The position numbers were made by a program, and so were the translations under genes. Positions 3,169 to 27,854 of a stretch of DNA of 33,094 nt are shown here, piece by piece. The stretch spans positions 1 through 33,094 of the forward strand of contig DUEU01000072.1 of assembly GCA_011191985.1 (NCBI GenBank), written 5' to 3'. Position 1 is the stretch's first letter; every line of letters starts with the position of its first letter. The DNA is from Dehalococcoidia bacterium. GTDB taxonomy: Bacteria > Chloroflexota > Dehalococcoidia > Dehalococcoidales > W111. The notes under the pieces were generated by a model that was given only the letters and a program-made list of their open reading frames with translations, was not told the origin of the DNA and did not search any database.

Positions 3169-3717
3169 ATGGAAGGTGATAGTAAAGTAACGATTAGAAG
3201 GGTAAAGGATAGTCAGAAGGGCAGCATCAGCTTGACCGTGAACGGCTGGTTATACGAGCTGGCGGTAGGCGATAAGCCGGGTGAAGTTGCCCCGTCGCAT
3301 ACCCTGGCGCATACCCTACGGGAGACGCTGCGTCTTACCGGGACAAAGATAAGCTGCGACCATGGTGCCTGCGGCGCATGCACGGTTATTATGGACGGCG
3401 AAACCGTTCTGTCGTGTATTACCCTGACCATGGATTGTGATGGCAAGAGTATAACGACTATTGAGGGGCTGGAGGACCTGGAAACGGGGCAGCTGCACCC
3501 GTTGCAGCAGGCATTTATCGACAATACGGCCTTTCAATGCGGTTTCTGCACCCCGGGAATAATAATGAGTGCCAAGGCGCTGCTGGATGAGGACCCTTCC
3601 CCAACGGAAGAGGCTATCAAGCAGGCTCTTTCCGGCAACTACTGCCGGTGTATATCGCACTACGAGGTCATCAAGGCAGTAAAGGAAGCGTCAGGAAGGA
3701 GTGATACCAATGGCTAG
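3169..3717 (+). CDS. Mo-hydroxylase small subunit, 2 x [2Fe-2S] (CoxS/XdhC-like)
   Basis: A 182-residue ferredoxin-type subunit of the xanthine oxidase family. It relays electrons from the molybdenum centre to the FAD subunit. The N-terminal plant-ferredoxin cluster has C63, C68, C71 and C83 (CDHGACGAC then LSC). The C-terminal helical domain carries the second cluster through C124, C127, C159 and C161 (CGFC, CRC). All eight ligands are present. The protein has about 20 extra residues before the first beta strand. It is the first gene of a three-gene operon, overlapping the large-subunit gene by 8 bases. Gene order S-L-M differs from the M-S-L order of classical CO dehydrogenase operons. Confidence 0.95.
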   Translation: MEGDSKVTIRRVKDSQKGSISLTVNGWLYELAVGDKPGEVAPSHTLAHTLRETLRLTGTKISCDHGACGACTVIMDGETVLSCITLTMDCDGKSITTIEGLEDLETGQLHPLQQAFIDNTAFQCGFCTPGIIMSAKALLDEDPSPTEEAIKQALSGNYCRCISHYEVIKAVKEASGRSDTNG

Positions 3718-5971
3718 AGGCTACCGGCATATAGGTAAGGCGACACCGCGTAAGGATGCCCGGGCAATCGTCACCGGTAAGGCACCGTATATTGATGATA
3801 TCAGGCTCACGGGGATGCTTTTCGGTAAGGTCTTGAGGAGTCCGCATGCCCATGCCGTAATCAAGAACATTGAGACGACCAGGGCGGAGAAATTGCCCGG
3901 CGTCAAAGCGGTGCTTACCTATAAAAACGTCCCTCAGTGGAACTGGGGATTACCCCGGCATGAAAGTACCCTCGACAGCAAGGTGCGTTATGTAGGCGAC
4001 AGCGTAGCCTTGGTCGCTGCGGAAACCGCAGAGATAGCCGAGGCGGCCTTGGAGCTAATAGATGTGGAGTACGAAGTGCTGCCGCCTGTCTATGACGCTC
4101 AGGAAGCCATGAAGCCCGGCGCGCCACAGCTATTCACGCAGTTCCCCAATAACACTCTTCCCCCCGATCCCATCAAGATCGACCCCAAACTATTGCAGCA
4201 TGTCGTCATGGGTGATGTCGAAAAGGGGTTTGCCGAAGCTGACTTCGTCGCCGAAGGGTCGTGCTCTTATGAGAACTTCCCCCATCCCCTGCCACCGGAA
4301 CCCCCCGGGGTTATCGCTGAATGGGGAGAGTTAGGTGAGCTGACCTTATATGTCGCGTCGCAATCGGCGGCTATGAATAAATACACTGCACAACCGGTTC
4401 TCGGGTTGGCTGACATCCGGGTTATCGGTACTCAATGCGGCGGCAGTTACGGGACAAAAAATGCCAATCTCCGCCCGCTTACCCAGGCTGCGGCCCTGGC
4501 CAAAGTTACCCGCCGGCCGGTCTTCCTTTACTATAACAAGGTCGAACACTTCGAAGCCTACACAGTGCGACTGGCTTCCCGTATTGATATCAAGGTAGGT
4601 ATCAAGAAGGATGGCATGGTAACGGCAGTATCGGGCGAGTGGATCGTGGGCGGGGGTGCCTATACCGAGTCGGGAAAGTACCAGATTGCCGTCGGTCTCG
4701 GCGAGACGATGGTTTTGCTGCGGTGCCCCAACTGGAACCTTCGCTCCAAGCTTATCTGTACCAATCGGATCCCGACGGGAGTCGTCAGGGGGTTCGGCGG
4801 TCAGGAGCTTGAATGTGCCTGGCTGCCAGTATTATCTATAGCCATGGAAAAGGCCGGTCTTGACCCGGTGGAGTTCTTTAAAAAGAACTATGCCAAGGCT
4901 GGTGACGGCTACTTCTGGCGCGACGGCAACTGGTGGGTCTGCCGTGGTGTGGACTATTCCAAGGCGATGCAGAAGGGGGCCGAAGTCTTTGGCTGGAAAG
5001 ACAAGTGGAAAGGGTGGGGCGTACCTACGTCTATCGAAGGTAACAAGAGGCGTGGGGTGGGTGTCGGGGTCCACGGTAATGCTGACGTGGGTGAGGACGA
5101 TTCCGAGGCATGGGTTAAACTGAGTCCTGACGGCCGGGCTATCGTACATGCCTGTGTATCGGAGTCTGGCCCCGGCCAGAGGAGCAGCCTGTGCAAAATG
5201 GCCGCCGAGGTGCTGAATCTGCCCCTTGACCGGGTCAATATAACGCCCCCGGATACACATGTGAACCCGTTTGAATTCGGACTAGTTGGCTCTAGAGGGA
5301 CTTTTACAGTCGGCTCCGCCGTAATACAGGCGGCCGAGGATGCCCTCCGCAAGCTGCTGGAACTTGCTGCCCCGGTGCTCGGCGCCAGACTGGAAGACCT
5401 GGAGACTGAAGACGGGCTGATATATGTCAGGGATAAGCCGGAAAGGAAGGTTCCCTGGCGTAAAGTGATGGGCATTGCCCGTACCGTGACCGGTCTGGGG
5501 CGTTTCGAGACCGACTTCTCTCTGCCTAGCTGCCTGATGCAGTTTGTGGAGGTAGAGGTGGATATTGAGACAGGGAAGACAGATTTACTGCGTGTCGTTT
5601 CGGCTACCGATTGCGGGCAGATTATAGACCCCCTGGTGCTGAATGGCCAACTCCACGGGTCCCTTGGGGCGGCAGGTATAGATACTGCCCTATATGAAGA
5701 GACTATTCTTGATAAGAATACAGGGCGCGTGTTGAACGGCAATATGTTGGACTACAAGTGGCGCACGTTCCTTGACCTTCCCCAGACCCAGAACGTGATT
5801 CTAGAGACGCCTATTCCGAGTCACCGCTTCCATGCCATAGGGATTGGTGAAATAGCCACCTCACCCGGCCCCAGCGCGGTGCTTATGGCCATCTCTAACG
5901 CAATCGGAAAGAGGATACTGGACTATCCAGTGACAGCTAGTAAGATCCTAAAGGCCTTGGGTAAGATATAA
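3710..5971 (+). CDS. Mo-hydroxylase large subunit, molybdopterin-binding (CoxL/XdhA-like)
   Basis: A 753-residue catalytic subunit. The N-terminal a/b hammerhead domain begins GYRHIGKATPRKDA and includes LRSPHAHA. The C-terminal molybdopterin domain follows, with QCGGSYGTK (the GGGFG-like loop), VVRGFGGQE (the active-site Arg loop) and HAIGIGE, whose Glu (about residue 714) matches the catalytic base of the family. The active-site loop is not the AYRCSFR of form I CO dehydrogenase, so CO oxidation is unlikely. The substrate (aldehyde, purine, N-heterocycle or aromatic acyl-CoA) cannot be read from sequence. I chose ATG 3710 because AGGAAGGAG lies 8 bases upstream; the GTG at 3701 falls within that ribosome-binding site. 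Confidence 0.94.
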   Translation: MARGYRHIGKATPRKDARAIVTGKAPYIDDIRLTGMLFGKVLRSPHAHAVIKNIETTRAEKLPGVKAVLTYKNVPQWNWGLPRHESTLDSKVRYVGDSVALVAAETAEIAEAALELIDVEYEVLPPVYDAQEAMKPGAPQLFTQFPNNTLPPDPIKIDPKLLQHVVMGDVEKGFAEADFVAEGSCSYENFPHPLPPEPPGVIAEWGELGELTLYVASQSAAMNKYTAQPVLGLADIRVIGTQCGGSYGTKNANLRPLTQAAALAKVTRRPVFLYYNKVEHFEAYTVRLASRIDIKVGIKKDGMVTAVSGEWIVGGGAYTESGKYQIAVGLGETMVLLRCPNWNLRSKLICTNRIPTGVVRGFGGQELECAWLPVLSIAMEKAGLDPVEFFKKNYAKAGDGYFWRDGNWWVCRGVDYSKAMQKGAEVFGWKDKWKGWGVPTSIEGNKRRGVGVGVHGNADVGEDDSEAWVKLSPDGRAIVHACVSESGPGQRSSLCKMAAEVLNLPLDRVNITPPDTHVNPFEFGLVGSRGTFTVGSAVIQAAEDALRKLLELAAPVLGARLEDLETEDGLIYVRDKPERKVPWRKVMGIARTVTGLGRFETDFSLPSCLMQFVEVEVDIETGKTDLLRVVSATDCGQIIDPLVLNGQLHGSLGAAGIDTALYEETILDKNTGRVLNGNMLDYKWRTFLDLPQTQNVILETPIPSHRFHAIGIGEIATSPGPSAVLMAISNAIGKRILDYPVTASKILKALGKI

Positions 5972-5987: not shown

Positions 5988-8351
5988 GTGAAAGGTTTCA
6001 ACCTCGTCAACGCAAGAACTGTTGACGAAGCTGTCAAATTGCTGAAGGGCTATAAAGGTAAAGCCAAATTAATCGCCGGTGGGACAGAATTGCTCGGAGA
6101 GCTTAAGGACAGGGCGCTGCCGGCGTACCCTGAGGCTCTGATAAACATCAAGACCATCCCTGATATGGGCTATATCAGGGAAGAAGCTGGAGTACTGAAA
6201 ATTGGAGCTTTAACTAAGCTTCGCGAAATGCAAACCTCTCCAGTCGTGAAGGAGAAGTATAAAATACTGGCTCAAGCAGCCCTTTCCGTGGCGTCACCGC
6301 AAATAAGGAACATGGGAACTGTTGGCGGTAACCTTTGTCAGGATGTCCGGTGCTGGTACTACCGGTATCCTCACCAAGTCGGAGGGCGGATCATGTGCCA
6401 TCTGAAGGGTGGCAAAGGCTGTTACGCTTTGAATGGGGAGAACCAGTACCACTCTATATTTGGTGGTTCCAGAGCAGCCAGCCCTCCTTGCTCCTTAGCT
6501 TGCCCGGGCAATGTGGATATCCCCTCATACCTGAGCAAAGTAAGAGAGGGTGACCTGCGTGAAGCGACTGAGATACTGCTCGACTCTAATCCGATGCCAT
6601 CAATAACCGGGCGAGTGTGCCCCCACTCCTGTGAGCAGGAGTGCAACCGGGGCGATTTCGATGAACCGGTGTCAGTAAGAGATGTTGAGCGGTTCATGGG
6701 TGATTATATCCTTGAGCACGCAAATGAAATCATCAAATCACCGGAGAAGAAAACCGGCCAGAAGGTGGCCATCGTCGGCTCAGGACCGGCCGGATTAACT
6801 GCTGCCTACTACCTGGCCAAGCGGGGCCACGCCGTCACCGTGTTTGAGGCATCTCCCAAAATTGGGGGCATGATGCGGCTGGTTATTCCCGATTACCGCC
6901 TGCCCAAGGATGTGCTGGATGCCGAGATTGAAAAGATACTGAGGATCGGTGTTGAGGCAAAAGTTAATACTGATGTGCAATCGATTGACGACCTTTTCCA
7001 GCAGGGCTATGATGCCGTCTTTCTTGCCTTAGGTGCTCACAGCAGTACCAAGATGCGGATTAAAGGCGAAAGTTTGTCCAGTGTCATGGATGGCATGAGC
7101 TTCCTTAGCGCCGTAAACTTGGGTGAGCGGGTTAATTTGGGAGACAGGGTGGCGGTGATTGGCGGGGGGAATACCGCGATAGATAGTGCCCGCGTTGCTC
7201 TTCGCCTGGGTGCCAAGGAGGTTACCATAGTCTATCGCCGGACCAGGGCTGAAATGCCAGCCAGCGGCGACGAGGTCGAAGAGGCGCTCAGTGAAGGTAT
7301 CAAAGTGGTCTTCCTGGCGACTCCAACCGAGATAAAGAGAGCGAAAGGTCAATTAGAGCTAGTTTGTACCCGGATGGAGCTTGGTGAGCCAGATGCCAGT
7401 GGTCGGCGGCAGCCGGTGCCAGTTGCTAGGAGTGAGTTCTCGGAGTACTTTGACTCTGTAATAGCTGCCGTCGGGCAGACTCCAGATATTCCAGGGCAAT
7501 TTGGCCTTAGGGTTAGAAGACAAAAGACCCTTCAGGTTGATCCCGATACCCAGGCTACTGATAGACAGGGGGTTTGGGCTGGTGGTGACGTGGTAACCGG
7601 CTCGGCTACTGTAATATCAGCCATTGCTGCTGGGAAAAGGGCCGCCGCATCTATTGACCGCTATCTAACAGGAGCGGAAGCAGCAACCAAGGATAAGGCA
7701 ACAGGGCAAACTTTCTTAAAGTTCAATAATGAGTATCTAAAAAAGACAAGCAAGGCCAAGGCACCGACAGTTCCATTATCTGACAGGAGCCTGGATGTTG
7801 AGGATACCTTCGGACTGGGCTTGACCGAAATGGAAACGGAAGCGAATCGGTGCTTCAATTGTAGCTGTTTGGCCGTTAACACGTCAGATATTGGTGTAGT
7901 GCTCGTCGCTTTAGAGGCAAAGGTAAAGATTGCCGGACCGGAGGGCATTAGGATAATCCCAATTAATGACTTCTTCGGTTCCTTAGGGAACGTTCTCGGG
8001 ACAGAAGAGGTGGTAACCGAGATTCAGGTCACCCGCCCTCCAGAGAAAGCCAAGCAGGCGTTCCTCAAATTCAGACTGCGGGAGGCCGTTGATTTTGCCA
8101 TTGTCAGTGTTGCCTCGGTCATTGACAGCAGCGATGGGGTGTGCCAGGACGCCAGGATAGCTCTTGGGGCCGTGGCGCCGGCGCCCGTCAGGGCAGCGGC
8201 GGCCGAGCAGGCCGTCAAGGGTAAGGCTATTGATGTCGCCACGGCCGAAGCGGCTTCAGCGGCTGCCGTAGCCGGTGCCATCCCTCTCAGCGAGAACGCC
8301 TATAAAGTCGAGATAGCCAGAGCGCTGGTGAAAAGGGCCCTGCTCTCCTGA
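5988..8351 (+). CDS. Mo-hydroxylase FAD subunit with nested GltD-like NAD(P) oxidoreductase
   Basis: A 787-residue protein, against about 290 for a normal CoxM/XdhB FAD subunit. Residues 1-160 are the N-terminal half of the FAD subunit (AGGTELLGELK, NMGTVGGNLCQD, then C122, C137 and C145 of an HcrB-like [4Fe-4S] loop ending HSIFGG). Residues about 161-625 form a whole GltD-like module: Fe-S cysteines C168, C172, C211, C215 and C219, FAD site VGSGPAGL (263-270), NAD(P) site IGGGNTAID (391-399) and the second FAD motif AGGDVVTG (531-538). From C627 the FAD subunit resumes (CLAVNTSD, VALEAKVKI, IPINDFF, then the CO-dehydrogenase flavoprotein C-terminal domain). The frame is uninterrupted. Inferred role: pass electrons from the Mo centre to, or from, NAD(P). 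GTG start with GGAGGT upstream. Confidence 0.92.
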   Translation: MKGFNLVNARTVDEAVKLLKGYKGKAKLIAGGTELLGELKDRALPAYPEALINIKTIPDMGYIREEAGVLKIGALTKLREMQTSPVVKEKYKILAQAALSVASPQIRNMGTVGGNLCQDVRCWYYRYPHQVGGRIMCHLKGGKGCYALNGENQYHSIFGGSRAASPPCSLACPGNVDIPSYLSKVREGDLREATEILLDSNPMPSITGRVCPHSCEQECNRGDFDEPVSVRDVERFMGDYILEHANEIIKSPEKKTGQKVAIVGSGPAGLTAAYYLAKRGHAVTVFEASPKIGGMMRLVIPDYRLPKDVLDAEIEKILRIGVEAKVNTDVQSIDDLFQQGYDAVFLALGAHSSTKMRIKGESLSSVMDGMSFLSAVNLGERVNLGDRVAVIGGGNTAIDSARVALRLGAKEVTIVYRRTRAEMPASGDEVEEALSEGIKVVFLATPTEIKRAKGQLELVCTRMELGEPDASGRRQPVPVARSEFSEYFDSVIAAVGQTPDIPGQFGLRVRRQKTLQVDPDTQATDRQGVWAGGDVVTGSATVISAIAAGKRAAASIDRYLTGAEAATKDKATGQTFLKFNNEYLKKTSKAKAPTVPLSDRSLDVEDTFGLGLTEMETEANRCFNCSCLAVNTSDIGVVLVALEAKVKIAGPEGIRIIPINDFFGSLGNVLGTEEVVTEIQVTRPPEKAKQAFLKFRLREAVDFAIVSVASVIDSSDGVCQDARIALGAVAPAPVRAAAAEQAVKGKAIDVATAEAASAAAVAGAIPLSENAYKVEIARALVKRALLS

Positions 8352-8465
8352 AGAAGCGCTGACAGAAGGCGCTTGAGCTGCCGGCTGGGGCTTGTCCGAT
8401 CTATCCCGGTCATGAAACCCGGCGGCATAATCTGCTGAGTATGTTGCCTGCATTGAAATTACATC

Positions 8466-9740
8466 ATGGCTACTAATGAATTACGTCAACCATCTGGGGC
8501 CAGACAGGGCCTTTTCTATGGCTATGTAGTGGCGTCGTCGTCGTTGCTTATCTCAATGTCGGCCTATGGTGTGCATAGCGCCTTTGGTATCTTTTTCAAA
8601 CCGATGTCAGGCGACCTCGGCTGGACCAGAGCCGTGACCTCGGGTGCTGTCTTAATTTTCTGGGTGATACACGGCTTTATGAGCATCGTTATCGGGAGGC
8701 TCAATGACCGGTTTGGCCCTCGAGTGTCGATGACTTTTTGCGGCCTATTCCTAGGCACAGGCTTTTTGCTGATGTCACAAATTAATGCTGTCTGGCAGCT
8801 GTACCTGTTATTTGGCGTGGTGATAGGCTTTGGGATAGGCGGCACCTTTGTCTCGCTGGCGTCAACCGTGGCCAGATGGTTTGTTAAGCGGCGGACCGTA
8901 ATGACCGGCATTGTTGTCGCCGGCTCGGGCTTGGGTCAGATGATAATACCGCCGTTGGCCAGCTATTTTATCTATAACTATACCTGGCGCCTGGCCTATT
9001 TAATACTGGGTGGTATTGCCCTGGTAGTTATTGTCGTACTGGCTCAGCTTTTACGCCGCGACCCGGCCCAAAAAGGGCTTAGACCTTACGGCGAAAATGA
9101 GGTAGAAGAGCAGCAGTTCAAACCGGAGCCACCATCATCCTTTACCCGAGAGGCAGTTAAGAGCCGGCAGCTATGGGTGGTTATCACCATGATATTCTGT
9201 CTTGGCTATAGTGTTTCTAGCATCATGGTCCATATTGTTCCCCATATAACTGACCTGGAGATCTCCCCCGCCACTGCCGCCGGCATTTTTGCCACAATGG
9301 GAGGGGCGGGCATTGTTGGCCGGGTGGTACTGGGGGCGGCTGCCGATAGAATCGGTAATAAGAATGCCTTCATCATTGGCTTTGCCTTGATGGCACTTAT
9401 TTCGTTCTGGCTCATACCGGCTACCACGGCATGGTCAATTTATGTATTCGCTATCATCTTTGGCGTTGCTTCCGGAGGTTGTGTTGCCTCGGAGTCACCC
9501 CTGGTGGCAACATTGTTTGGATTGAAAGCGCACGGCTTGCTTCTGGGGTTTGTGGTCTGCGGCTTCAGCGTCGGTGCTGCTATCGGTCCGTTTGTGACTG
9601 GTTATATATTTGATATCGACAATAGCTATCGAGTGGCCTTCTTTATTTGTGCCTTTCTGGCTATTTTCGGTCTCGTATTGAGTGTAATTTTAAGGCCGAC
9701 CGGCATGGGCGGAGAGCCGGCGCCGCACATTCAGAGCTAG
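8466..9740 (+). CDS. MFS transporter, monocarboxylate/oxalate-formate-like
   Basis: A 424-residue protein with about 12 hydrophobic segments. It opens GLFYGYVVASSSLLI and has the MFS loop 2-3 signature as GRLNDRFGPR, with a central cytoplasmic loop around residues 200-235. The pattern resembles the OFA/MCT (monocarboxylate) branch of the major facilitator superfamily, so a small organic anion is the likely cargo; this is inference. It follows the Mo-hydroxylase operon by 114 bases on the same strand and could import that enzyme's substrate. No clear Shine-Dalgarno sequence precedes the ATG. Confidence 0.9.
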   Translation: MATNELRQPSGARQGLFYGYVVASSSLLISMSAYGVHSAFGIFFKPMSGDLGWTRAVTSGAVLIFWVIHGFMSIVIGRLNDRFGPRVSMTFCGLFLGTGFLLMSQINAVWQLYLLFGVVIGFGIGGTFVSLASTVARWFVKRRTVMTGIVVAGSGLGQMIIPPLASYFIYNYTWRLAYLILGGIALVVIVVLAQLLRRDPAQKGLRPYGENEVEEQQFKPEPPSSFTREAVKSRQLWVVITMIFCLGYSVSSIMVHIVPHITDLEISPATAAGIFATMGGAGIVGRVVLGAAADRIGNKNAFIIGFALMALISFWLIPATTAWSIYVFAIIFGVASGGCVASESPLVATLFGLKAHGLLLGFVVCGFSVGAAIGPFVTGYIFDIDNSYRVAFFICAFLAIFGLVLSVILRPTGMGGEPAPHIQS

Positions 9741-9753
9741 AGCGAAACGTGAT

Positions 9754-9784
9754 TAGACTGCCCCCAAGCCAATTCGCAGCCCTG
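9754..9784 (-). repeat. Degenerate copy of tRNA-Glu 3' end (possible att scar)
   Basis: Aligned to 12300-12330, 26 of 31 positions agree by eye, including an unbroken tgcccccaagc and aattcg. The matched part of the tRNA gene is its 3' acceptor strand and T-arm, in the same orientation. Such a fragment cannot fold as a tRNA on its own. Integrases that target tRNA genes leave direct repeats of exactly this part. Confidence 0.5.
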
Positions 9785-9925
9785 GCTGCTAAAGCCATTT
9801 GCCTCTGTAAAGGATATCATTTATAAAGTTAAAGTCACATATACTTACCCACTTCCCTAAATTCTGGTCTAGCATGGAAACAGAACTCCTTTTGGGCGGC
9901 GGAGTTCAATAAGGCCCGATGCGGT

Positions 9926-9954
9926 TTGCATATATCGCGGAGTAATGGTAGTAT
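9926..9954 (+). promoter_or_regulatory. Putative promoter of the second MFS gene
   Basis: TTGCAT (9926-9931), a 17-base spacer and TAGTAT (9949-9954). Transcription from about 9961 would give a leader of about 80 bases that contains the hairpins at 9982-10006. Confidence 0.4.
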
Positions 9955-10039: not shown

Positions 10040-11338
10040 ATGACCAATTCAAAGCGCCCCCGCTTCAGGTTGTTCTACGGGTGGTACATTGTTGGCGCCT
10101 GTGTCTTGATTTCGGTGTATTGTTCCGGAGTCATGATTCGCAGTTTAACCGCACTTATTGAGCCGATAGTAGATGAGTTTCACTGGGGTTATGCCCTGGT
10201 CTCTGTTGCGGCTTCAATAGGTGGTCTGGAATCGGGCCTTCTATCTCCCCTGGTGGGCTTTCTTTTTGACCGCTGGGGGCCGAGGAAGCTAATTTTCGCC
10301 GGGGCTACTATTACCGGTTTCGGCTTGTTGCTACTAAGCCGTACCAACTCCCTGGCTATGTTTTACGGTTCATTTATACTCATAAGCACCGCCTTAAGCG
10401 TAAGTGCCGGTGTCGTCCCGATTGCGCTGGTAGGTAACTGGTTTCGCAAAAGGGTATCTCTGGTCACCGGCATTGTAGTGAGCGGTGTCGCTGCCGGAGG
10501 CGTTATGGTACCGCTGGTAACGTGGGTTATCGATACTTATGATTGGCGGACGGCAATGGTAATTTTTGGCCTCGGAGCGTGGGTCATCATCTTTCCACTG
10601 GCACTAATAGTGCGGCATCGGCCGGAAGATTACGGTTATCTACCTGATGGTGAGGTAAGCCAAGCAGTAGACGTTTATGAAGTCCAGCCGTCAGAGCAAT
10701 ACCGAGAGCCAGATATTGGTGCCAAACAGGCCTTTAAAAGCCGGGCCTTCTGGCACTTCTCACTGGGGATGGTGTGTCATTTTACCTTGGCGATTGCCGT
10801 AACAACCCATGTGATGCCTTATCTAAGCAGCATTGGTATCCCCCGGGCGACTTCCAGCTTGGTAGCTATGGCTATACCGTTAGTGACTATCGCTGGCCGT
10901 CTCAGCTTTGGTTGGTTAGGGGACAGGCTGGACAAGAGGCGGATAACGGCTTCGGGGATGGCCCTGATGGTTATCGGTATGCTCCTGTTTAACTACGTTG
11001 ATATTGCCGGGACATGGCTGATGATAGCATTCATTATATTCTTCGGCATCGGCTACGGGGGACCGGCTCCTATGTTAGCGGCTTTGATAAGGGAATATTT
11101 CGGTCGGATCAGTTTGGGTACTGTCCTAGGCATGGCTATGGGTGTGGCTTATATTGGTAGCCTGATAGGACCGCCCCTGGCTGGCTGGATATATGACGTA
11201 TATGGCAGCTATCAGGGTGCCTGGTTTATCATGGCCGGTGTGTCCTTTGCCGGTATGGTTAGCTTTATGACTGCCCCTCGTGCTAGTCGTGCAATGCTAG
11301 TGGCCGGTAAGTTAAAAGACCAGGCGAACGCGTTCTGA
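10040..11338 (+). CDS. MFS transporter, monocarboxylate/oxalate-formate-like
   Basis: A 432-residue carrier with about 12 membrane segments. It opens RLFYGWYIVGACVLIS and has the signature FLFDRWGPRK after helix 2, a VVSGVAAGG stretch in helix 5, and a central loop ending RHRPEDYGYLPDGEVS. Those same phrases recur in the carrier at 26577, so the two are paralogues; it is less like the neighbour at 8466. The likely cargo is an organic anion, by family only. It lies inside the segment bounded by the tRNA-Glu gene and its degenerate 3' copy. Downstream, GCTCC/GGAGC could form a weak hairpin without a T-run. Confidence 0.9.
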   Translation: MTNSKRPRFRLFYGWYIVGACVLISVYCSGVMIRSLTALIEPIVDEFHWGYALVSVAASIGGLESGLLSPLVGFLFDRWGPRKLIFAGATITGFGLLLLSRTNSLAMFYGSFILISTALSVSAGVVPIALVGNWFRKRVSLVTGIVVSGVAAGGVMVPLVTWVIDTYDWRTAMVIFGLGAWVIIFPLALIVRHRPEDYGYLPDGEVSQAVDVYEVQPSEQYREPDIGAKQAFKSRAFWHFSLGMVCHFTLAIAVTTHVMPYLSSIGIPRATSSLVAMAIPLVTIAGRLSFGWLGDRLDKRRITASGMALMVIGMLLFNYVDIAGTWLMIAFIIFFGIGYGGPAPMLAALIREYFGRISLGTVLGMAMGVAYIGSLIGPPLAGWIYDVYGSYQGAWFIMAGVSFAGMVSFMTAPRASRAMLVAGKLKDQANAF

Positions 11339-26525: not shown

Positions 26526-26576
26526 CAGTGAAGAACCGCCTCAGATATGTCCAGAGACGGCGTCTGCTTTGTTATC

Positions 26577-27854
26577 ATGTACACCAGTGAGGAGAGACGG
26601 CGGCTGTTCTACGGGTGGTGGATTGTCGGCGCCGGTTTCATCATTTCGTTGTTTTCCGGCGGGGTCATCTTTTACGGGTTCACCGCCCTTTTTGAGCCGA
26701 TAGCCAGCGAGTTTGAGTGGAGCTACGTGCAGGTCTCGCTGGCCGCTTCGCTGCGTGGTATGGAGATGGGCCTTCTTGCCCCCTTAGTGGGGATACTCGT
26801 TGACAGCTGGGGGCCAAGGCGTTTAATTGTTGCCGGTGCTGTCATTATGGGTTCGGGCCTGATACTGCTGGGCCAGGTCAACTCTCTGGCCGCGTTTTAC
26901 GGGTCCTTCGCCGTAATTGCTATCGGTATTAGTGCCATGAGCGGTACCGTAATGCTGACCTCGGTGGTCAACTGGTTTCGCCGCAAGGTGGCCCTGGCCA
27001 CCGGAATTATGGTCAGCGGCCTGGCTATCGGGGGCCTTCTGATTCCGGTGGTCACATTGCTTATCGACGAATGCGGCTGGCGCATGGCAATGGTCATCCT
27101 CGGCCTGTGTGCCTGGGTTGTAGTTATACCGCTGGCACTTTTCTTCCGTCATAGGCCCGAGCAATATGGCCATTTGCCGGACGGCGAGGTGAGCAGCACC
27201 GTGATTGTTGAGGAGAATCGAGTTCCCGCTCAGGGTACCCCGGCCGGTGTCTCGGCCGCAGGGATAGGGACGAGGCGTGCGTTCTGGCACATTTCTCTGG
27301 CCACTATGCTTCAGATGCTGATAATGAGTTCCGTTTCCACGCACATCATGCCCTATCTCACCAGTATCGATGTCTCCCGGTCGGCAGCCAGTCTGGTGGC
27401 TGGCGTCGTACCGCTGGCCAGCATCGGTGGCCGCCTTGGCTTCGGCTGGCTTGGCGATAAATTTAACCCGAAGATAGTGGCCGCCCTGGGTTGTGTTCTT
27501 ATTACTCTGGGCATGCTCTGTTTTGGTGGTCTTATCACCGGGTGGACATGGCTGCTGCTGCCGTTTATCGTCTGTTTCAGTACCGGCTGGGGGGGTAGTG
27601 TCGTGGTGAGGGTAGTTTTAATCCGAAAATATTACAGTCGGGGTCAGTTTGGCCGTACCTACGGCTTTCTCATCGGCATATCGACTTTTGGCCACGTGGC
27701 CGGGGCCCCCCTGGCCGGGTGGGTATTTGATGAGTGGGGGGCCTATTTCGGGGCATGGTTTGCTATGGCGGCACTGGCGGTTGTTAGTCTGGTCATTTTT
27801 CTCACTGTCCCGCCTAGCAGACGAAGGGTGCCGCCGTCTGATAAGTCCCGGTAG
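26577..27854 (+). CDS. MFS transporter, paralogue of the carrier at 10040
   Basis: A 425-residue carrier with about 12 membrane segments. It begins MYTSEERRRLFYGWWIVGAGF and has GILVDSWGPRR after helix 2, MVSGLAIGG in helix 5, and a central loop ending FRHRPEQYGHLPDGEVS. These match the carrier at 10040 nearly phrase for phrase, so they share recent ancestry, while cargo (probably an organic anion of the oxalate-formate/monocarboxylate type) is inferred from family only. ATG 26577 aligns with the paralogue's start; an in-frame ATG at 26547 would add ten unrelated residues. Neither has a strong ribosome-binding site. Confidence 0.9.
   Translation: MYTSEERRRLFYGWWIVGAGFIISLFSGGVIFYGFTALFEPIASEFEWSYVQVSLAASLRGMEMGLLAPLVGILVDSWGPRRLIVAGAVIMGSGLILLGQVNSLAAFYGSFAVIAIGISAMSGTVMLTSVVNWFRRKVALATGIMVSGLAIGGLLIPVVTLLIDECGWRMAMVILGLCAWVVVIPLALFFRHRPEQYGHLPDGEVSSTVIVEENRVPAQGTPAGVSAAGIGTRRAFWHISLATMLQMLIMSSVSTHIMPYLTSIDVSRSAASLVAGVVPLASIGGRLGFGWLGDKFNPKIVAALGCVLITLGMLCFGGLITGWTWLLLPFIVCFSTGWGGSVVVRVVLIRKYYSRGQFGRTYGFLIGISTFGHVAGAPLAGWVFDEWGAYFGAWFAMAALAVVSLVIFLTVPPSRRRVPPSDKSR

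Follow-up and report, generated by a model that had tools for sequence, protein, structure and literature searches.

A GltD/NfnB-like NAD(P)H oxidoreductase nested within the flavin subunit of a xanthine-oxidase-family molybdenum enzyme of Dehalococcoidia

The S-L-M operon and its split flavin subunit

We analysed a stretch of 33,094 nucleotides (the window) from a Dehalococcoidia genome, in which an operon of the order S-L-M encodes the small, large and medium subunits of a xanthine-oxidase-family molybdenum enzyme; S and L lie directly upstream of M. The features of the operon and of the genes downstream are listed below, where residue numbers refer to M and fractions to the nested proteins of our alignment.

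3169..3717, + strand: small subunit S, 182 aa, two [2Fe-2S] domains (Pfam Fer2/Fer2_3, Fer2_2)
3701..5971, + strand: large molybdopterin subunit L, 756 aa (Ald_Xan_dh_C, MoCoBD_1, MoCoBD_2)
5988..8351, + strand: medium subunit M with nested oxidoreductase, 787 aa, a single uninterrupted ORF
5988..6467, + strand: first host half, residues 1-160 (FAD_binding_5; predicted loop ligands C122, C137, C145)
6468..7865, + strand: nested GltD/NfnB-like NAD(P)H:FAD module, residues 161-626 (Fer4_20, Pyr_redox_2; PDB matches NfnABC, StnC, NfnB)
6489..6689, + strand: predicted [4Fe-4S] ligands of the insert, C168, C172, C211, C215, C219, E234 (invariant, 51/51)
6777..6794, + strand: FAD motif GxGPxG of the insert, residues 264-269 (G264, G266 and P267 51/51, G269 50/51)
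7161..7172, + strand: NAD(P) motif GGGN, residues 392-395 (G392-G394 51/51, N395 50/51)
7233..7241, + strand: Y416-R417-R418, NADP(H)-type motif (described, with assays, in PMC7596348)
7851..7868, + strand: C622-x2-C625-x-C627 junction (invariant, 51/51), where the distal cluster of the insert would meet the host cluster
7866..8351, + strand: second host half, residues 627-787 (CO_deh_flav_C), plus stop
8466..9740, + strand: MFS transporter (MFS_1), a possible substrate carrier if functionally linked
10040..11338, + strand: second MFS transporter (Pfam), possibly linked in function

The start codon of M is GTG at 5988, preceded by GGAGG; for L, translation could also begin with the ATG at 3710. 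The cysteines of S are found at positions 63, 68, 71 and 83 and at 124, 127, 159 and 161. Concerning the downstream genes, oxalate/formate- and lactate-type MFS models match the product of 8466..9740 below cut-off. A third MFS transporter, encoded at 26547-27854 of the window, shares 49% identity with the product of 10040-11338.

The Pfam search of residues 1-787 returned FAD_binding_5 (4-118; 132.5 bits, cut-off 27), Fer4_20 (165-244), Pyr_redox_2 (259-549) and CO_deh_flav_C (698-786; 60.5 bits, cut-off 25.5), which are the four domains named in a first-pass annotation of the window. Both junctions also lie where that annotation had put them: the FAD subunit breaks after HSIFGG (G160) and restarts at CLAVNTSD (C627). 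Judged by its sequence, M is a xanthine-oxidase-family FAD subunit split by a GltD/NfnB-like NAD(P)H oxidoreductase of about 466 aa. The description of the insert as GltD-type, with single sites for FAD and NAD(P), agrees with its Pfam domains and its near-invariant motifs. The flavin motifs of the host are likewise kept (AGG: A30 G31 G32; TIGGN: T111 G113 G114 N115, all near-invariant), in line with the two flavins per chain expected in the first-pass annotation. No curated NCBIfam model scores the insert above its cut-off (the best is NF009410, 496.7 against 516; TIGR01316 reaches 360 against 472), and the combined architecture is covered by no Pfam or NCBIfam model.

The AlphaFold2 model of M, built from a 60-sequence alignment and without cofactors, is confident overall (mean pLDDT 85.7, pTM 0.84), with the exception of residues 118-133, a part of the cluster loop with pLDDT below 50. 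As the host makes up 41% of the chain and the insert 59%, a pTM of 0.84 would be hard to reach with unassembled or floating host halves. In a Foldseek search against the PDB, the best 50 matches are of the GltD type only, so that the host fold was not probed by this comparison.

Cysteines of the cluster loop, the insert and the shrunken companions

The alignment comprises 60 proteins, 51 nested and nine uninserted. The distance from host residue 160 to the equivalent of C627 is 461-487 residues in all 51 nested proteins versus 2-5 in the uninserted ones. C122, C137, C145 and C627 are invariant in all 60, C627 being present in 9/9 of the uninserted relatives, and these four residues are predicted to form the host's own [4Fe-4S] loop. 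The first three had been reported as retained, and the fourth ligand had been expected after the insert, a position which C627 takes with and without the insert.

The spacing of the loop cysteines had also been likened to that of HcrB. HcrABC, 4-hydroxybenzoyl-CoA reductase (4-HBCR; PDB 1rm6), likewise consists of S, L and M subunits, with an extra [4Fe-4S] loop in the FAD subunit; its donor is a low-potential ferredoxin. HcrB lacks the insert and differs in its third loop cysteine: out of positions 122, 138, 146 and 155, which we take to be its loop ligands, three align with M (C138 with C145), while C146 is unmatched in M and M has C137 in addition. M scores 146.4 bits on the HcrB model TIGR03195, far below the cut-off of 404.55, and the score on TIGR03194 is likewise far below cut-off. 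By contrast, the FAD-subunit cysteines of E. coli PaoB (PaoABC, 5g5g) and of 5y6q_B, both uninserted, align at C122, C137, C145 and C627. These comparisons are based on phmmer alignments of an uninserted paralogue (L011), carried to the window via protein alignments. The cysteines themselves are therefore as described, but the likeness to HcrB spacing is nearly a coincidence, since HcrB uses a different cysteine in place of C137 and PaoB matches all four.

Looking at the insert, C168, C172, C211, C215, C219 and E234 align one-to-one with C47, C51, C90, C96, C100 and E117 of NfnB (4ylf_B), where C47 and C100 belong to the distal cluster and C51, C90, C96 and E117 to the proximal one (PMC7596348). 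The remaining distal ligands of NfnB, C39xxC42, have no counterpart before C168, either in the alignment to 4ylf_B or in the nested set. In StnC and NfnABC, a tail of the form RCLECGC or RCLxCGC stands at the alignment position of C622 and C625, and the GltD domain of StnC (residues 102-565) carries two clusters in a linear chain from NADPH (PMC10482914). We infer that C622 and C625 complete the distal cluster, replacing the N-terminal CxxC of the NfnB type; the two ends of the insert would then meet at its own cluster, an arrangement that would lend itself to insertion into a loop. A single residue separates C625 from C627, so that the distal cluster and the loop cluster would have to be close neighbours. 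This CxxC at the C-terminal end of the insert, beside a host ligand, is the key to the wiring proposed below and is absent from the first-pass annotation. All 11 predicted ligand cysteines are invariant in 51/51 nested proteins.

Five loci of Bacillota encode, directly after M, a shrunken nested paralogue of 520-565 aa, here called M2 (L064:8436-10127, L022:8562-10163, L027:8576-10177, L030:8358-10055 and L041:8380-9942). All five lack AGG and TIGGN of the host, E234, and the NAD(P) motif GGG along with the greater part of its Rossmann domain; GxGxxG of the insert is missing in four. Based on an invariance set of six M proteins, 44 of 222 M-invariant residues survive in all five M2, including 11 of the 12 invariant cysteines, and these 11 are exactly the predicted ligand set. 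The one cysteine lost, C117, was never a predicted ligand. The hypergeometric value of this retention is 6e-8, a descriptive figure which ignores relatedness.

Distribution and ancestry of the nested protein

The source genome (2.0 Mb, 97 contigs) contains two further full-length nested copies (59% and 55% identical) as well as two paralogues without the insert, 327 and 330 residues long, all on other contigs. The uninserted paralogues represent the empty site: in them, the equivalent of 626/627 comes almost immediately after residue 159/160. Fragments at G000:C34:5924-6238 and G000:C35:9-179 of the same genome match the C-terminal half of the host and suggest more copies or remnants.

A scan of GTDB genomes left 80 loci, and the nested protein is found in 56 of them (57 genes). 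Its hosts belong to Bacillota, deltaproteobacterial MAGs, Chloroflexota, Synergistota and Spirochaetota; among them are Enterocloster asparagiformis DSM 15981, whose chromosome sequence is complete, and the isolate Acetobacterium tundrae. In the order of the window, 6 of 151 sampled genomes contain it; these score at least 780 bits, and free GltD-like proteins no higher than 518. For the class of E. asparagiformis the figure is 2 of 99, this species counted. These frequencies do not draw on a search of 400 genomes of the phylum at E<=1e-170, which scored two candidates per genome only. Overall, the nested arrangement has a patchy distribution, with anaerobic hosts in four or more phyla. Among 72,556 plasmid records, no nested copy was found at E<=1e-60.

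There are also differences in gene order and content. An extra S-L pair precedes S-L-M in L025, L055 and L073, where two Mo subunits may share a single nested M. In L068:5998-11139 the order is M-S-L, not S-L-M, preceded by an MFS gene resembling the second transporter of the window. An uninserted M of Gracilibacteraceae (L089:507-6984) adjoins NuoE/F/G-like genes, which may provide a Mo enzyme of this kind with a different diaphorase. In Archaeoglobaceae, L081:563-1555 encodes a FAD subunit without the insert which has junction residues of the nested type (YHSVFG, CIAVNPSD) and groups with the nested L016, a possible secondary loss.

In the insert tree, all nested inserts form one clade apart from the free GltD-like proteins (100/100), from which a single acquisition of the insert in evolution is read, and the insert of the window is sister to the remaining nested ones (99/98). 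A swap specific to the window, considered as its insert resembles free GltD more, was ruled out by this 100/100 placement. The host-domain tree does not keep the nested proteins together: a single nested clade was rejected by the AU test (p 0.011, for a clade not named in advance), mainly owing to L081, L089 and the main uninserted clade, all of which lack the insert but branch between nested proteins. The history therefore includes losses, swaps or transfers.

Concerning the cofactor, YRR is found in the window and in the L015-L019 group, as is usual in free relatives, whereas 46 of the 51 aligned nested proteins have CLE, SLE, CVE or TLE, which are of the NAD(H) type. Work on DsrL found that the YRR enzyme uses NADP(H) only and that enzymes without YRR prefer or require NAD(H) (PMC7596348). 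The window enzyme is accordingly predicted from its motif to use NADP(H), and its two paralogues and most other nested enzymes NAD(H). YRR versus xLE follows the insert tree, and the pattern is consistent with one switch from YRR to xLE in a derived clade. Both types occur in one genome with three nested enzymes, the window having YRR and L009 and L010 having CLE.

A proposed electron line, its direction and its alternatives

In our proposal, S-L-M is a xanthine-oxidase-family Mo enzyme whose flavin subunit, M, houses a complete NAD(P)H dehydrogenase inside its [4Fe-4S] loop. Electrons from NADPH would enter the FAD of the insert and pass to the proximal cluster (C172, C211, C215, E234), the distal cluster (C168, C219, C622, C625) and the loop cluster (C122, C137, C145, C627), from which they would reach the host FAD, the two [2Fe-2S] clusters of S and finally Mo in L. 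With the distal and loop clusters adjacent, the insertion would swap a diffusible donor for a fixed wire. The direct connection to NAD(P)H suggested in the first-pass annotation finds support here as predicted wiring. In vivo, an aromatic acid, free or as its CoA ester, may lose a hydroxyl or similar group at the cost of NADPH, although the chain would be reversible. To our knowledge, none of the nested enzymes has been purified. Taken as a whole, with its leaning towards reduction, we consider this hard-wired line from NADPH to Mo in S-L-M to be probable. On direction alone we lean only slightly towards reductive running in vivo, and reductive dehydroxylation of an aromatic acid or CoA ester is a plausible reaction.

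Several pointers speak for reduction. Among solved structures, L is nearest to 4-HBCR alpha (closest PDB match, E 3.4e-75); NADPH usually acts as a donor; three related loci of deltaproteobacteria encode an acyl-CoA ligase next to S-L-M (L017:1-12355, where Liv-type ABC transporter genes come next, L018:59-1654 and L019:8410-10005); and Ucdh, a related phenol dehydroxylase discussed below, is driven by NADH in vitro. The ligase-flanked loci point to a CoA-ester substrate; at the window locus no CoA ligase was found. The reductive reading is weakened by the curated models for 4-HBCR and xanthine dehydrogenase, on which L obtains near-equal scores, both far below cut-offs.

The same wiring could also run in reverse: the enzyme would then be a dehydrogenase that takes electrons from an aldehyde or N-heterocycle at Mo and passes them to NAD(P)+. 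Most members of the family are oxidative, including the periplasmic aldehyde oxidoreductase PaoABC, and the matching loop cysteines of PaoB count against reduction. DsrL, which belongs to the same oxidoreductase family, runs in both directions, and NAD+, to which the motif of the 46 nested proteins would correspond, is usually the better cellular acceptor (PMC7596348). The NADP(H) motif of the window favours a donor role instead, and the likeness of L to 4-HBCR and the three ligase-bearing loci also speak for reduction. We regard the oxidative direction as a real possibility, though not the one we expect.

The insert may otherwise be passive or regulatory, with ferredoxin or a separate diaphorase as the true donor. 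Uninserted relatives work without it, and one of them (L089) is grouped with NuoE/F/G-like genes; but 51 nested proteins from several phyla show near-invariant motifs for FAD and NAD(P), and even M2 retains the CxxCxC junction, which makes a passive insert unlikely.

Less likely still is that the nested flavin bifurcates, splitting the electrons of NAD(P)H between ferredoxin and the Mo branch. This was raised in the first-pass annotation after the example of NfnB, with which the insert shares its fold, the proximal Glu ligand and a flavin arginine, and one chain would hold two flavins and three predicted [4Fe-4S] clusters. The arginine, R304, matches R201 of NfnB, which stabilises the anionic semiquinone, but equally R239 of StnC, which does not bifurcate (PMC10482914). 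An NfnA-like partner was not found beside the gene in the window or in the paralogues, and one linear path would use all three predicted clusters, so no second branch would be left. The suggestion is not upheld by these comparisons. Finally, a false join at 6470 or 7850, from assembly or a frameshift, can be set aside, since the same junctions are repeated in two paralogues of the same genome and in 56 loci, one of them in a complete chromosome.

Known systems close to this one include StnC of StnABC (8oh5) and NfnABC (9bov, 9n5u), in which a GltD domain with the RCLxCGC tail also lies inside a larger Fe-S protein; the linear NADPH > FAD > [4Fe-4S] chain of StnC resembles that proposed here. 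There, the GltD domain is located among NuoG-like domains and feeds a separate bifurcating module, whereas in M it is inside a Mo-hydroxylase flavin subunit. NfnB, GltD and domains I-III of dihydropyrimidine dehydrogenase share the Fer4_20 and Pyr_redox_2 fold and the proximal Glu ligand with the insert, but their distal CxxC is N-terminal and that of the insert C-terminal. The parallel with YgfK drawn in the first-pass annotation proved unfair: YgfK is likewise GltD-like and NAD(P)H-linked, and a Mo hydroxylase is encoded nearby, but it is a separate enzyme, assayed with SsnA as a yanthine reductase and not as an electron partner of the Mo subunit (PMC12507026), and the score on TIGR03315 is 357 against a cut-off of 835.

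Urolithin C dehydroxylase of Enterocloster, Ucdh, is a xanthine-oxidase-family phenol dehydroxylase driven by NADH in vitro (PMC12771579). We considered it as a characterised nested enzyme, but it is probably un-nested: its subunit letters suggest the order M-S-L, like that of an un-nested set which adjoins the nested operon in E. asparagiformis (L021:8977-12723, with the un-nested M at 8977-9951 and the nested one at 5998-8379). The L of this set reaches 412.8 bits against 4-HBCR alpha. This set is a candidate Ucdh homologue.

Each module is already known, as are GltD modules embedded in larger proteins (StnC). The nesting in the cluster loop of a Mo enzyme, the CxxCxC junction, the patchy spread and the cysteine-only M2 are undescribed in the literature searched, an incomplete set with few subscription papers. 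If the wiring is true, an Fe-S cluster loop can act as a socket for a whole NAD(P)H dehydrogenase, whose last cluster touches that of the host. The nested proteins would then mark out an uncharacterised group of Mo enzymes linked to NAD(P)H, of which one genome often encodes several; its members occur in gut Bacillota (Enterocloster, Gemmiger, Hungatella), acetogens, deltaproteobacteria and Chloroflexota, and curators would have a family to name. The wiring would also bear on the reductions carried out by gut and sediment anaerobes, such as phenol dehydroxylation and its electron route from NADH.
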